Shown here piece after piece: positions 39,019-56,506 of a stretch of 64,000 bases of DNA (within the stretch, counting starts at the first letter, position 1; each line of letters starts with the position of its first letter). This DNA is from Schizochytrium sp. TIO01 (taxonomy: Eukaryota > Sar > Bigyra > Thraustochytrida > Thraustochytriidae). The notes beneath the pieces were generated by a model. It was given only the letters and a program-made list of their open reading frames with translations. It did not search any database and was not told the DNA's origin. The stretch spans positions 8,204,668 through 8,268,667 of the forward strand of contig SMSO01000032.1 of assembly GCA_004764695.1 (NCBI GenBank). Reading direction: 5' to 3'. The position numbers were made by a program, and so were the translations under genes.

Positions 39019-40572
39019 CTAAAATGATTTGAACTTTTTGATTTGACCCATGAACTCACGAAATTGAGCCAAGAAAGACTCAGACGGTTCAGTGTACTCT
39101 GTGTGCTCAGGAGGCGGGACTTTTCCGTGGTCCGCCTCAAGAAGAGGACCGATATATAATTGCTTGAGAAAGATGAATGATTCACGTGTGGCATGGTATA
39201 CTTCAAACAGCACTGTTGCATCGACATTGAGGGCTTGAGCAGGGATAATGGTGTTTCCACCGGGGTGCAGGTCCAGCCAGTCGGTAACATCGCAAACCTG
39301 GTTATCAATGATCAAGAGAAGCTCACCATTTGCGTTCCGCTGTTTTATTTCCTCAAAAGGGATTCCTTCAAGACGCAACGAGTTAGAAAAATCGTTCTTG
39401 ACTTTTTCGCAGGCACGCTGAAGACCTATGAGACGTAGACTTTTGGCTGCCTCAAGGAGCTCATCAGCTTCATGCAGATCAATCTCATATTCGAGGCCCT
39501 TGGCTTCAGCCTCTAGATAAATGAGCACCTTATCAAAAAGGCAACAATCCAGGTCCACATCGAGGGATTCCGTATTGGGGGACAGAACTGTGTGAGCTAG
39601 TGTGATACAAGGCTGAAGCAGACGCTTTTTTACTGGAAAGTACTCTCCATCATTACAAGTCACGTGCACGATGTTGGTGGGCGGAATGCGTTCAAAGGGG
39701 CGAAATTCGCCATCCAGCATAAAACCAGGTACATTGATACCTTCGATGTGCCAGCGCGTGGTTGTTTGAACAACTCCACGAACAATATCCGGGAGGAAGA
39801 GGTCCTTATCTTCGTCCTCTTCAGCCTCTTCTTCTGCCACAACGTCTCGGATCGTCACAAGAAGGTCGTGCCCTTTAAAGTCAAGTCGGATCCGCTCGTG
39901 CTGTGTAATAATTTGCTGGAAGAGAGCTTTACCCAAAAAGCTGCGCAGCTCGCCACGCTCGATACGAATCTGCGACTCGGGCTGATTATTTCCAATCTTG
40001 TCTCCAACATTTGTCCCAGCATTGCCCATTTCTTTGTCATCAGCGTCTCCATCCGCGTCGTCGTCGTCGTCGTCGTCATCATCATCATCATTATCGCCGT
40101 CGGTGTCCATTTTGTCTTCACCGACGTCATAAGGCCTGACTTCGACAAGTACTTGCTGTAGCGCAGGTAGGGCCTCGACCTCTTCAGTCTCAAACCTAGA
40201 CCATGGGAAGCGGTCCTGGCCGACGACAACCTCAAAGTTTCTGCACTGAGCTTCGTCGAGGCAAATGGAGTCCTCAGGAAGCGCTTCGCACGGCTTCACT
40301 CGAAGAACAAACTGTGGATGTGTTCTTGCAAAGACTAGGATTGACCCGATGTTTTCATGTTCTCCGGCCAATTCTGTAAATGCTTTTGGCGACACCAAGC
40401 CAAGTTGCGATCCTCGAGCTGCCTCGCGCAAGGCAAAGTAATTGTTTGCGGCAGCAGATTCCACATTACTCTCATTGTTTTCGGTCACCGGAGAGAACGT
40501 CTCAAGACTTACAGTGCGGAGAGGTTTCTGCGCTCGAGTCGCATGGCGATTGTTGGCGGCCACCCAAGGCAT
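39019..40572 (-). CDS. NSF-N-like / SKP1-BTB-like / cytochrome b5 domain protein
   Basis: One exon; ATG chosen at 40,572, since the frame opens 11 codons earlier only with a TTG. 517 residues. Residues about 40-285 resemble the N-terminal substrate-binding domain of NSF/CDC48-type AAA proteins (double-psi barrel plus second lobe), with no AAA domain after it. An Asp run (about 157-172) interrupts the two lobes. Residues about 298-405 resemble a SKP1/BTB fold (HVTCNDGEYFPVKKRLL, later ADELLEAAKSLRLIGL). Residues about 412-475 are a cytochrome b5 domain: VCDVTDWLDLHPGG, with axial His 436 and His 460 spaced 24, as in classical b5. No membrane anchor is seen. A ubiquitin-ligase adaptor or heme-dependent sensor role is speculation. 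The b5 call is firm, SKP1/BTB good, NSF-N moderate. A GTAAGT near 40,510 is a possible unused donor. Confidence 0.88.
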   Translation of the reverse strand: MPWVAANNRHATRAQKPLRTVSLETFSPVTENNESNVESAAANNYFALREAARGSQLGLVSPKAFTELAGEHENIGSILVFARTHPQFVLRVKPCEALPEDSICLDEAQCRNFEVVVGQDRFPWSRFETEEVEALPALQQVLVEVRPYDVGEDKMDTDGDNDDDDDDDDDDDADGDADDKEMGNAGTNVGDKIGNNQPESQIRIERGELRSFLGKALFQQIITQHERIRLDFKGHDLLVTIRDVVAEEEAEEDEDKDLFLPDIVRGVVQTTTRWHIEGINVPGFMLDGEFRPFERIPPTNIVHVTCNDGEYFPVKKRLLQPCITLAHTVLSPNTESLDVDLDCCLFDKVLIYLEAEAKGLEYEIDLHEADELLEAAKSLRLIGLQRACEKVKNDFSNSLRLEGIPFEEIKQRNANGELLLIIDNQVCDVTDWLDLHPGGNTIIPAQALNVDATVLFEVYHATRESFIFLKQLYIGPLLEADHGKVPPPEHTEYTEPSESFLAQFREFMGQIKKFKSF

Positions 40573-41931: not shown

Positions 41932-42825
41932 ATGAGCCTTATGAGCGAGGCTCGTGTGGCTGCTGAGGCGTTCACCACAATGACAGCGCAGCTCGCACGA
42001 GAAGTAAGCGAACTCCAGGCACTTTGCGTCCTGGCAGGGTCTGATGCCAGACCCGCTGCAATGCAAAGACTTGCAAGTGGAGTTGATGAAGTTGAGGACC
42101 GCCTTTTGGCGCTCGAGGCTGCTGTGGAGGCTGAGCTCGCGCTCACAGAGGATGCTAGAGCTCTCGTCACAGAACTTGCTGCTCAATCTGAACGTGCAGA
42201 AGAATTGAAGCGATGCCTCGCAAAATCCGCAACGAGTACCATTGAAAATAGTGATGAGAATGATGTCGAGAATGACACTTACGAACACAACGTCGAAAAC
42301 GCCTCAACCCTCGGCAACTTAGGACCAAACTCAAGGTCTGAATGTGGTAAATCAAGGTATGAAGGTTCAGAGGAAGACCTTCAGGAAGGTGACGATTTTG
42401 CTGGTGAAGAAGATGATAATGGAGCTGGAGCTACTGTAGATCCTGAGACTGGCAAGGTTAGCGTGAGTGCGCCGTCGAAAGATCAGTTAGACGCGGTTCC
42501 AAATTATATGCGCGGAAGATTGACAGTGGAGAAGGTTGAAGCTGCGGTGCAGGTAGTGAATGCGACTTTTGAGTATAAACGAAGCACCATGCTTATTCCA
42601 AGGGGAAAGCAGAGCGTTACAGTGCGGGAGCAAATCATGGCCTGGAGAGACCAGGAACTTGAGGAAACGCGGGGGTTACACTTTGTTAGCCGTGATGACA
42701 TATTTGCACAGGCTGCTCGTGACGGAATCGATCTTAACATTGTCAAACAAGCGCTTCAAGTGCTCAGGTATACTGGTGCCTTACGGCATATTAGCGGTGG
42801 TGGTTGTGCAAGATTTTGCGTGTGA
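41932..42825 (+). CDS. SKA1: Spindle and kinetochore-associated protein 1
   Basis: Single exon, 297 residues, start in AACCCAAAATGAGC. Residues about 5-105 are Ala/Glu/Leu-rich and predicted coiled coil, the part that in SKA1 pairs with SKA2 and SKA3. An acidic linker (about 106-175) follows. Residues about 189-297 match the SKA1 microtubule-binding domain: VPNYMRGRLT at its start, then the KRSTML, AWRDQELEETRG, DIFAQ and LRYTGALRHISGGGCARF segments, which parallel the human end sequence ending in GG-x-TRY. SKA1 works in the outer-kinetochore SKA complex that tracks microtubule ends together with NDC80 during mitosis. Identification is from memory of the family, but the domain order, length and C-terminal motif all agree. 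The next gene is convergent. Confidence 0.9.
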   Translation: MSLMSEARVAAEAFTTMTAQLAREVSELQALCVLAGSDARPAAMQRLASGVDEVEDRLLALEAAVEAELALTEDARALVTELAAQSERAEELKRCLAKSATSTIENSDENDVENDTYEHNVENASTLGNLGPNSRSECGKSRYEGSEEDLQEGDDFAGEEDDNGAGATVDPETGKVSVSAPSKDQLDAVPNYMRGRLTVEKVEAAVQVVNATFEYKRSTMLIPRGKQSVTVREQIMAWRDQELEETRGLHFVSRDDIFAQAARDGIDLNIVKQALQVLRYTGALRHISGGGCARFCV

Positions 42826-53266: not shown

Positions 53267-56041
53267 CTAAAACAAAGGTTTTACTTTCATGCCAGGAGGC
53301 CATAGTGTTTTTGTCCTTGGTATTTTTGCTCTGGAAGCTTGCTTATAACTCCTATTGGTATAAGAGTTGGATAACAGACCAACCATAGAGCTTTGTTCCA
53401 CCAAATCCGAGCATGCTGAACTTGAACGTACTGTATGAGACTCAGGAGGACACATTTTGGGCGCAAACAGCAAAGGAGACTTCGAGAGCTTCGAAAAATC
53501 CAAATGTGGAACTTGGGATTTAGTGGTGACTTGGGATCTCTCCAAAGGCCGTGTAGACTTTGCGCATGGCTCTGAACTCAGATCACATCTTAAGCCCTGC
53601 GATGATCGGCTTGATGAGCTTCCCAAAGATGGCGTGGAATGAACACTTTGAAAGGATGAGACCGGATGTTCATTAAGACGAACAATCACCGGTAGTCGTT
53701 GAGTGTTTTTCACCTCTGCAGCTACAGTCTCAACTTCCTCATAGCTGCAACTACAACAGCAGAAACCTTCTTTACTGCATGGTGAGCTAAAATCCACTGC
53801 TTTATTCGTTCGAGGAAGTAGTTGACTGGACGATTGTGAGGAGCTAGAGGCATCGTCATAGCTTGATGAGAGGGAAGATGATAAAATGTCTGCTTGTATC
53901 AAGTGCTGCGATGAAGAAGATGCATGATTAGAAGAGGTTGCAAATAAGATGTTTGCACTATTTTCGAACCTTGGGGAAGGGGAGGAGCTTGAGATACATC
54001 TGGAGTTCAAGGAGGACGCAGATAGCTCTGAAGAACTTGCTAAAGATGTAGGGCCAGATGCATCCTTATAATTTCTTGTTGACTGAGAAGAATTGAATGG
54101 CTCTGTGGAACTTGAGGACAATGAAGAGCTAGACGGCTCTATGGAACTCGAGGACGATGAAGAGCTAGACGGCTCTGTGGAACTCGAGGATAATGAAGAG
54201 CTAGACGGCTCTGTGGAACTCGAGGATAATGAAGAGCTAGACGGCTCTGTAGAAGTCGAGGACAATGAAGAGCTAGACGGCTCTGCGGAACTCGAGGACG
54301 ATGAAGAACTAGACGGCTCTGTGGAACTCGAGGACGATGAAGAGCTAGACGGCTCTGTGGAACTCGAGGACAATGAAGAGCTAGACGGCTCTGTGGAACT
54401 CGAGGATAGCGAAGAGCTAGACGGCTCTGTGGAACTCGAGGACAATGAAGAGCTAGACGGCTCTATAGGAGTCGAGGACAACGAAGAGCTAGACGGCTCT
54501 ATAGGAGTCGAGGACAACGAAGAGCTAGACGGCTCTGTAGAACGCAGGGATAGCGAAGAGCTAGACGGCTCTGTGGAACTCGAGGACAATGAAGAGCTAG
54601 ACGGCTCTGTAGAACTCGAGGACAATGAAGAGCTAGACAGCCCAGAAGAGATTGGTGATGAAGAAGTGGTGAATGTCTGTTCCGAGTACATAAGATTACG
54701 GACGTCAGGAGAAATAGGGGATCTCTCATGTTCATATCTTTCTTGGGCTCCTCTATACAGAGGAACTTCTATATGATTTTCCTTTTGTTCTGGCTGATGT
54801 GAATGTTCTGGTACTAAAATAGTTTTCTGGCAGCAAACTGAATAGTGAGATTGCGCTGTGGGTCGTGTTGCTGTTTTGAACAAGACTTTGGTAGAGTTAC
54901 TGATTGAAATTTTGCCTTGATCACCTGTATTACTGCAGTAAATGTTTTCATTCATAGCCTGATTTCGAACTTCTTTCATTTCTTTCTCCTCGAACCCAAA
55001 AGGTGAAGACAAATAATTACAAACAGAACTTTGAGGATGTTTAGGCCCTAACGTGGTATTCTCTGATTGCAAAACATTAGAATCTGGGGTTGAGCAATTC
55101 GAAAACTCTGAAGACATTTGTTCCAACTGGTCTGGTATTACAAAATATCTTTGCGGTTGCGAAGAGTCTTCCTCTGAACCTGATTGACTAGACGAGGTTA
55201 AATTCAAAATTTGGCCACGATGGTATCCTTGGTATGTTTCTGACATCCATGCATCCAATACATCTTGTTGGCCTTGTTGTTGGTGGCAAAAACCATGCAA
55301 AATAGAGCCTTCTGGATCCTTTGTTGAAGACTTCCTCTTTACAGTATTGCTTTCAGTCTTTGAGGGGATCTTCATCTTCTTCATTTTCTTTTTACGCTGC
55401 CCCAAGGAACGGTTTTTGACACGATTTGCTTCTTTACACTCGCGAAGACTTTGTTTAAATTTCACTGCTAATTTTATATCAACATTTTTGGCTTCTTCAA
55501 ATGCCTCGCGATAGACATCCTCGGCACGCTCAAAATTGCGGTTCCCCTCGAGAACAACCGCATAAGTATGCAATGCGATTGGAAGAATTGAAGTGCATTC
55601 CATTATTCTACAGTTCTCAACAGCAGCGCAGGCCACGGGGTAAGCATCAGCGTAACGCTTCTTTGCAACCAATAGTGAAGCATAACGAAGCAGAATCTCT
55701 GGCGAGCCGTGCTTTAGTTCGATAGATTTAAACCAGGAGGTCATTAATCTTAATGCTGCTTTGGGCTGCTTTGTATCTTGTAAAAGCTTCGCATGCCAGT
55801 CAGTGAGCTCACAGGCCATTTGTACAGACCCTAGCAACGCTAAGTGTTGAGCCAGGCGGTCACATAGCTGTCCAGTTCTTAGCCTAGCCTCACTCGACGT
55901 TCTCACTCGACAATCTGTATGCGCAAGGATACTCAGTAAGTCTAGGGCTGCACTCTCTAGAGTTGTTCTTGGGGCATCTCTTTCTACAAGCTCTACAACT
56001 TGAGATAGTGCCTGGCACGCATCCTCCGGGCATTGCTTCAT
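53267..56041 (-). CDS. Protein with helical-repeat N-terminus and long serine-rich repeat region
   Basis: ATG chosen at 56,041 (MKQCPEDACQAL); the upstream extension begins with TTG. 924 residues. Residues about 1-200 are helical with TPR-like spacing (ALRLMTSWFKSIELKHGSPEILLRYASLLVAKKRYADAYPVACAAVEN; NFERAEDVYREAFEEAK), consistent with a protein-binding solenoid. A basic patch (QRKKKMKKMK) could be a nuclear localisation signal. From about 467 to 652, fifteen or so copies of a 12-residue unit (SSSSLSSSSTEP) occur. The tail remains Ser-rich, with CCCSC near 760. There are no catalytic motifs and I do not recognise a family. The TPR part is inferred from periodicity, not a confirmed domain. 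Confidence 0.82.
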   Translation of the reverse strand: MKQCPEDACQALSQVVELVERDAPRTTLESAALDLLSILAHTDCRVRTSSEARLRTGQLCDRLAQHLALLGSVQMACELTDWHAKLLQDTKQPKAALRLMTSWFKSIELKHGSPEILLRYASLLVAKKRYADAYPVACAAVENCRIMECTSILPIALHTYAVVLEGNRNFERAEDVYREAFEEAKNVDIKLAVKFKQSLRECKEANRVKNRSLGQRKKKMKKMKIPSKTESNTVKRKSSTKDPEGSILHGFCHQQQGQQDVLDAWMSETYQGYHRGQILNLTSSSQSGSEEDSSQPQRYFVIPDQLEQMSSEFSNCSTPDSNVLQSENTTLGPKHPQSSVCNYLSSPFGFEEKEMKEVRNQAMNENIYCSNTGDQGKISISNSTKVLFKTATRPTAQSHYSVCCQKTILVPEHSHQPEQKENHIEVPLYRGAQERYEHERSPISPDVRNLMYSEQTFTTSSSPISSGLSSSSLSSSSTEPSSSSLSSSSTEPSSSSLSLRSTEPSSSSLSSTPIEPSSSSLSSTPIEPSSSSLSSSSTEPSSSSLSSSSTEPSSSSLSSSSTEPSSSSSSSSSTEPSSSSSSSSSAEPSSSSLSSTSTEPSSSSLSSSSTEPSSSSLSSSSTEPSSSSSSSSSIEPSSSSLSSSSTEPFNSSQSTRNYKDASGPTSLASSSELSASSLNSRCISSSSPSPRFENSANILFATSSNHASSSSQHLIQADILSSSLSSSYDDASSSSQSSSQLLPRTNKAVDFSSPCSKEGFCCCSCSYEEVETVAAEVKNTQRLPVIVRLNEHPVSSFQSVHSTPSLGSSSSRSSQGLRCDLSSEPCAKSTRPLERSQVTTKSQVPHLDFSKLSKSPLLFAPKMCPPESHTVRSSSACSDLVEQSSMVGLLSNSYTNRSYKQASRAKIPRTKTLWPPGMKVKPLF
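54093..54640. repeat. 36-bp coding minisatellite in the serine-rich gene
   Basis: About fifteen copies of a 36-bp unit whose plus-strand core is GAGCTAGACGGCTCTGTGGA, with a few substitutions between copies. On the coding (minus) strand each unit gives SSSSLSSSSTEP. The plus strand happens to stay open for 227 codons; that frame is an artefact. Confidence 0.96.
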
Positions 56042-56506
56042 CCCTCCTCTTTTGTTCAAAGGGTTTTGGCCACTTCTCCGAATGGTCGTCTGCGATTACC
56101 CTTCAGTAATGAGTCCTTCCAGGTCCCAGTAAGCACAGCTGACTATCGTTTGTTCAAATTCATCTTATGCATATGTCCGTTGAGACCAAGGCGCTCTCAA
56201 AATAATACTCCCTCCTAGTAAAAATAGTGGTTAAAATGAGTAGTATTGCCTATTACGGAGTAAATGATAAAGGATGGCTCAACATATATTGAGAAATAAA
56301 TAAAGACTTCAAATTTGATCGTATTTATTGCTCTCGAACACAGGGGTGAAAAAGTAGCAAAGACCAAAGTATGAGAAAAATAATCATTGAAAAACAAAAC
56401 AAATACATTTGTGTGAACGGTTTGTGTGAACAAAAAGAAAAAAGGAAGGTAAAGCAATTCAGTTACATTCTAATACAGGCGTCTCACTTTAGTTCGCAAT
56501 ATTTTA
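56042..56506. other. Spacer between two minus-strand genes
   Basis: 465 bp holding the Wee1-like 3' flank and the promoter of the serine-repeat gene. AT-rich, with nothing recognisable. Confidence 0.6.

Follow-up and report, generated by a model that had tools for sequence, protein, structure and literature searches.

The gene and its surroundings

The stretch of Schizochytrium sp. TIO01 DNA analysed here (the window, 64,000 nucleotides) carries on its minus strand a gene for a protein of 517 amino acids, in which a leader, two halves of a putative N-terminal module parted by a poly-aspartate insert, a SKP1/BTB-like region, a cytochrome b5 domain and a short tail follow one another (Table 1). 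The open frame begins with an ATG at 40572 that has an A at -3 and continues uninterrupted through 517 codons to a stop, an event with a probability of about 1e-12 by chance at the same composition. By codon score the frame ranks first among the six frames in all seven of seven segments, and three intergenic stretches used as controls were negative in 18 of 18 frames; the score was trained on 37 stop-to-stop frames of at least 350 codons from other loci, at least one of them antisense (over CDC48). Splicing was considered through a search for three donor-like hexamers in 39019-40572. The GTAAGT at 40512 is a possible donor whose first frame-keeping YAG lies 201 bases on, and its use would remove residues 21-87; the GTGAGT at 39059 is without any frame-keeping YAG. 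A division of the protein among separate genes is rejected on sequence grounds, the frame being open throughout.

Table 1. Features of the gene and its predicted product, in window coordinates
Feature	Position	Strand	Remarks
Gene, single open frame, 517 aa + stop	39019..40572	(-)	58.3 kDa, pI 4.5
Leader, residues 1-40	40453..40572	(-)	No acidic residue before E24; holds GTAAGT at 40512
NN-like half, residues 40-152	40117..40455	(-)	NSF-N profile; double-psi barrel expected from sequence
Poly-Asp insert, residues 153-194, between halves	39991..40116	(-)	Charge -18 over 42 residues
NC-like half (CDC48_2), residues 195-300	39673..39990	(-)	Pfam CDC48_2; second acidic loop at about 246-258
SKP1/elongin-C/BTB-like fold, residues 300-402	39367..39675	(-)	Pfam BTB E 0.025; mixed profile
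Cytochrome b5 domain, residues 407-477	39142..39354	(-)	Pfam Cyt-b5, PDB 3ner
His436, predicted first axial heme ligand, HPGG motif	39265..39267	(-)	Alignment with the genome's b5 domains
His460, predicted second axial heme ligand	39193..39195	(-)	Alignment; 24 residues from His436
Tail, residues 478-517, soluble	39022..39141	(-)	Helical moment of end not above shuffles

The encoded protein is soluble by hydropathy and acidic. No membrane anchor was found, the highest 19-residue Kyte-Doolittle mean being 1.0, and no AAA domain is present either in the protein or in the eight neighbouring frames scanned; the sequence-only reading had stated that neither an AAA ATPase nor a membrane anchor follows, and on both points it was right. 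A C-terminal amphipathic anchor gains no support from the helical moment of the tail, which 810 of 5000 shuffles reached; a mitochondrial leader was also weighed as a reading of the N-terminus.

Downstream, a convergent frame of 1101 amino acids with a weak, under cut-off EF-hand match ends 201 bases from the gene. Upstream, divergent from it and 1359 bases away, lies a gene for an SKA1-like kinetochore protein (window 41932-42825; Pfam SKA1, 83.3 bits). Elsewhere in the window, positions 1-25700 hold no open frame of at least 150 amino acids and have a G+C content of 0.32-0.45 per 2 kb, as against 0.40-0.49 in the remainder; simple repeats occur in this region, as do local duplications at 16.2-17.8 kb. 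A 36-base repeat is present fifteen times at 54099-54638, inside a 930-residue minus-strand frame (53267-56059). The genome searched comprises 64.06 Mb in 37 contigs; its gene content is eukaryotic (NSF, SKP1, BTB, SKA1 and COX6A), and it includes a PUFA-synthase-type, PfaA-like gene (best piece 925.7 bits, one-frame pieces 1157.4 bits), which in a eukaryote suggests a thraustochytrid or another labyrinthulomycete.

The cytochrome b5 and SKP1/BTB-like domains

By its profile and structural matches the C-terminal domain is certainly a cytochrome b5. Pfam Cyt-b5 scores 52.2 bits against a curated cut-off of 23.7 (E 6.3e-14 for the whole protein, 7.6e-15 for the slice), and among solved structures the PDB search ranks cytochrome b5 type B highest (3ner, E 1e-8). 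Of the 35 b5 places listed by a genome scan, 20 loci were tried for an alignment and 15 came through a crude filter; one of these was a wrong-strand reading (L013) and was left out. In all 14 remaining, correctly translated domains of this genome the axial histidines fall in the columns of His436 and His460. Both the b5 domain and the correct spacing of these two histidines had been proposed beforehand, and both are borne out. The domain would thus hold heme b between His436 and His460. Other b5 domains of this genome occur in groups. The minus strand of contig C13 carries eight consecutive b5 domains in 3.9 kb (1643025-1646925; loci L019, L021-L023 and L029), where the open frames are of 196, 802 and 419 amino acids, two of them overlapping, and possibly constitute one multi-heme b5 polyprotein; an adjacent pair on contig C31 (787459-787953) shares a single open frame of 224 amino acids.

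A SKP1/BTB-like domain at residues 300-402 is well supported, as judged from sequence profiles, although the signal differs considerably between methods. In Pfam, residues 295-402 are matched best by BTB (E 0.025, 15.2 bits against a cut-off of 20.5), with E values of 0.025 and 0.041 in two slices, both under cut-off; BTB is absent from the whole-protein list at E<=10, Skp1_POZ matches neither the whole protein nor the slices, and the genome scans with BTB (23 places) and Skp1_POZ (4 places) omit this gene. A PDB search with the middle slice likewise returned chance matches only, to ribonucleotide reductase (E 0.06-0.56), and a tRNA thiolase (E 0.05) from another PDB search was dismissed in the same way. 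A mixed profile of 17 SKP1, elongin-C and BTB rows, whose match spans residues 302-391 or thereabouts, scores 19.1 bits, a value reached by none of 2000 shuffles (best shuffle 8.3). With this profile, 33 of 602 tiles score higher, and every one of them belongs to a locus retrieved as BTB or SKP1; these loci also contributed 12 of the profile's 17 rows. Leaving aside the gene itself, the highest-scoring tile from any other locus reaches 6.1 bits. Narrower profiles discriminate less: the first ones tried on the slice were equalled by 21 (six-row SKP1/elongin-C) and 34 (eight-row BTB) of 2000 shuffles; the SKP1/elongin-C profile, enlarged by three rows and run under a different gap setting, gave 8.7 bits and 1 of 2000, with an unrelated tile at 8.3; and a later BTB-only profile gave 19 of 2000 and placed the slice 50th of 603 tiles, several unrelated tiles being ahead of it. 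The SKP1/BTB-like assignment made in the sequence-only reading is accordingly upheld by the mixed profile, while Pfam supports it weakly.

Two features bear on whether this domain could work as SKP1 does. In SKP1, the C-terminal helices bind the F-box; here they are missing, the profile match ending at about residue 391 and the b5 domain starting at 407. Further, the AANYL of SKP1, whose Asn-Tyr we take to be the Cul1-contact pair, reads AAKSL, with Lys-Ser in the Asn-Tyr position. Since the F-box-binding helices are missing and the Asn-Tyr pair is replaced, a place for the protein in an SCF complex is doubtful, and by the same sequence features it is not a SKP1. The genome has three clustered SKP1-type genes within about 5.3 kb (C33:1653463-1658805).

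The N-terminal module

A Cdc48/NSF-type N module at residues 40-300 is likely, on profile evidence, but not proven. Pfam CDC48_2 matches residues 204-248 with an E value of 0.012 in the whole protein and of 8.7e-4 in the slice 200-300, where it scores 19.3 bits against a curated cut-off of 22.4. In a genome scan at E<=1 this model lists five places, the present protein (E 0.04) among them; the other four, named by eye, are CDC48 and three UFD1-type genes, and the genome's own NSF is omitted at that threshold. A UFD1-type N domain is found in a 578-residue frame at C6:2224022 (L006), with a C-terminal extension that is UBX/UBA-like by eye.

A four-member NSF-N profile, run on residues 40-300 with the acidic insert taken out, gave 9.1-9.2 bits and was equalled by none of 2000 shuffles in each of three runs. 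Taken alone, the NC half was equalled by 0, 1 and 1 of 2000 shuffles and the NN half, at 3.1 bits, by 5, 3 and 3, and on the BTB and b5 slices the profile performed at chance level. With the insert kept, the score was 5.4 bits (0 of 2000 shuffles, or 1 of 2000 when only the flanks were shuffled). Similarly, a nine-member superfamily profile gave both halves without the insert 12.0 bits and 0 of 2000, a rank just under eleven tiles from the CDC48, NSF and UFD1-type genes of this genome, the best unrelated tile being at 6.8; with the insert kept it gave 7.3 bits, equalled by 2 and 0 of 2000 under two kinds of shuffling. A UFD1- or CDC48-type rather than an NSF-type N domain is less supported, given that on residues 40-300 without the insert a UFD1-N profile was equalled by 50 of 2000 shuffles and a one-sequence CDC48-N profile by 437, as against none for NSF-N. 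The NSF-N-like domain of the sequence-only reading is thus moderately supported for the NC half, through CDC48_2, and for both halves together (0-2 of 2000), but not with the same force for the NN half, which is weak by itself.

It is rather unlikely, in our estimation, that only the b5 domain and perhaps the BTB-like one are real, and that residues 40-300 represent a lineage-specific or different fold resembling NSF-N by chance. The weakness of the NN half is consistent with such an explanation: its slice has no Pfam match, CDC48_N included, a model that lists CDC48 and NSF alone in the genome scan at E<=10, and the superfamily profile on this half was equalled by 26 and 24 of 2000 shuffles. 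In hhalign comparisons with shallow profiles, the score of the true sequence was reached by 19 of 100 shuffles for NN, by 1 for NC and by 13 for the two halves together, and BLASTP with the genome's own NSF N domain found nothing significant. Further, the superfamily profile with the acidic insert kept exceeds an unrelated tile by a small margin (7.3 against 6.8 bits), and a SKP1 profile also matched the NC slice at 1 of 2000 through the acidic loop, from which it follows that such shuffle tests can mislead. When the second acidic loop is removed, however, a later SKP1 profile no longer matches NC, whereas the NSF-N profile on both halves is still equalled by 0 of 2000 shuffles. The superfamily profile is weakened by the same removal: its score drops to 6.4 bits, though again equalled by 0 of 2000, and NC alone is then equalled by 8 of 2000. 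The CDC48_2 match and the arrangement of the NN- and NC-like halves in NSF-N order also argue against chance resemblance.

Possible roles and known systems

The proposed fusion of three domains therefore holds with graded confidence: certain for b5, strong for the BTB/SKP1-like part and moderate for the NSF/Cdc48-N-like part. The reading that we favour, and on which we are evenly divided, is that of a soluble heme-b interaction adaptor composed of the N module, the SKP1/BTB-like domain and b5. The N module, as a diverged domain of the Cdc48/NSF type closest to NSF-N and freed from any ATPase, would bind a partner protein; the middle domain would dimerise the protein or dock it to another complex; and the C-terminal b5, with heme b between its two histidines, might gate the adaptor through heme occupancy or redox state, or deliver electrons to the protein that is bound. 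The families to which the two putative binding domains are assigned commonly serve protein-protein contact. The folds of the N module and the middle domain, the binding of a partner and of heme, and regulation by heme are all inferred from the sequence.

An electron-transfer protein in which b5 feeds an enzyme recruited by the N and BTB-like modules, with no ubiquitin link, is likewise rather unlikely. The HPGG motif and both ligands are retained and classical b5 domains are established electron carriers, but the protein contains no enzyme or reductase domain and the eight neighbouring frames scanned offer no obvious partner gene. Unlikely, in turn, is a heme- or redox-gated ubiquitin adaptor, the kind of role raised in the sequence-only reading, in which the BTB/SKP1-like domain would dock to a cullin, the N module would hold either a substrate or some cofactor of Cdc48, and the b5 domain would act as the switch. 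The presence of a SKP1/BTB-type signal beside an N module of the Cdc48/NSF/UFD1 superfamily speaks for it; the Lys-Ser in place of the presumed Cul1-contact pair, the missing F-box-binding helices and Pfam lists free of any E3, F-box or UBX family speak against it. Precedents, by analogy, are the hemerythrin-bearing FBXL5 and BRUTUS and, as given in an excerpt of PMC6924556, the b5-like subdomain of HERC2. The more specific proposal of a heme- or redox-gated adaptor linked to cullin and Cdc48, with a motorless NSF-type client-binding module, SKP1/BTB-like docking and a b5 switch, is quite improbable; were it true, protein turnover or the disassembly of complexes could respond to heme by this route.

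Returning to the soluble interaction adaptor, its implications depend on the N domain. If that domain holds, the adaptor-binding module of NSF/Cdc48 would be usable apart from its ATPase, joined to SKP1/BTB-like docking and a heme domain, and a heme- or redox-controlled adaptor would become directly testable. Each domain is already known, and the novelty of their combination is unproven; the union of NSF-N, SKP1/BTB and b5 is not named in the literature titles and abstract openings surveyed. Domain shuffling is common in protists. Searches for relatives in viral contigs, bacterial and archaeal genome contigs and phage records found none, and these virus and prokaryote collections say little on how widespread the architecture is; NCBIfam gave nothing at E<=1. 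Apart from the gene itself, its own genome gave matches to two b5 regions, one of which looks by eye like a flavocytochrome-b2 frame, and, via the poly-Asp tract, to one further frame. The latter is CDC45-like by eye, and blastp with the matched piece found nothing. Because no relatives were found, no argument from conservation is made.

Compared with known systems, the protein probably shares with the N domains of NSF/Sec18, Cdc48/p97 and UFD1 a two-part N module, whose NC half matches CDC48_2 under the cut-off. Unlike NSF it has no D1/D2 ATPase, its halves are split by the poly-Asp insert, and their pI is 4.7-4.8 as against 6.4-7.9 in four NSF-N sequences. Given that D1 and D2 are missing, the NSF-type N domain here could not act as a motor and the protein, to judge by its sequence, is not an NSF. 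According to an excerpt of PMC11532144, NSF contacts SNAP through the basic residues R10, R67, K68 and K104, and mutations of R67, S73 and Q76 weaken SNAP binding. In an ungapped alignment of the NN half, R67/K68 correspond to Cys110-Arg111 (a shift of one is possible) and S73 to Val116, while Q76 is kept as Gln119; the K104 region falls near the acidic insert, and R10 is not alignable. With R67/K68 and S73 changed in this alignment, aspartates near K104 and acidic halves, binding of SNAP is doubtful.

The match to the mixed profile similarly allies the middle domain with SKP1, elongin C and BTB-POZ proteins, from which it differs in its mid-chain position, in the absence of SKP1 C-terminal helices and in the changed Cul1-contact pair. 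With soluble cytochrome b5 domains such as b5 type B and RLF, the C-terminal domain has in common the Pfam Cyt-b5 match, the HPGG motif and two axial histidines, but the stretch from its HPGG helix to its DAT-type motif is longer by one residue, an insertion seen in none of the 14 other aligned b5 domains, and it is without a membrane tail. HERC2 is a giant HECT ligase which, like the present protein, has a b5-type domain, an analogy limited by its lack of an NSF-N or SKP1-like part. An excerpt of PMC6924556 describes it as a ubiquitin ligase that bears a b5-like subdomain and takes part in the iron-linked turnover of NCOA4, and an excerpt of PMC6063350 lists Cytb5 among the domain names of HECT ligases. 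FBXL5 and BRUTUS also place a metal-binding domain within a ubiquitin-ligase component, by way of analogy; theirs is a hemerythrin diiron domain rather than a heme b5, and any functional resemblance is hypothetical. Together, HERC2, FBXL5 and BRUTUS show that ubiquitin-ligase parts can carry metal-cofactor domains, although for the present protein they are analogies.
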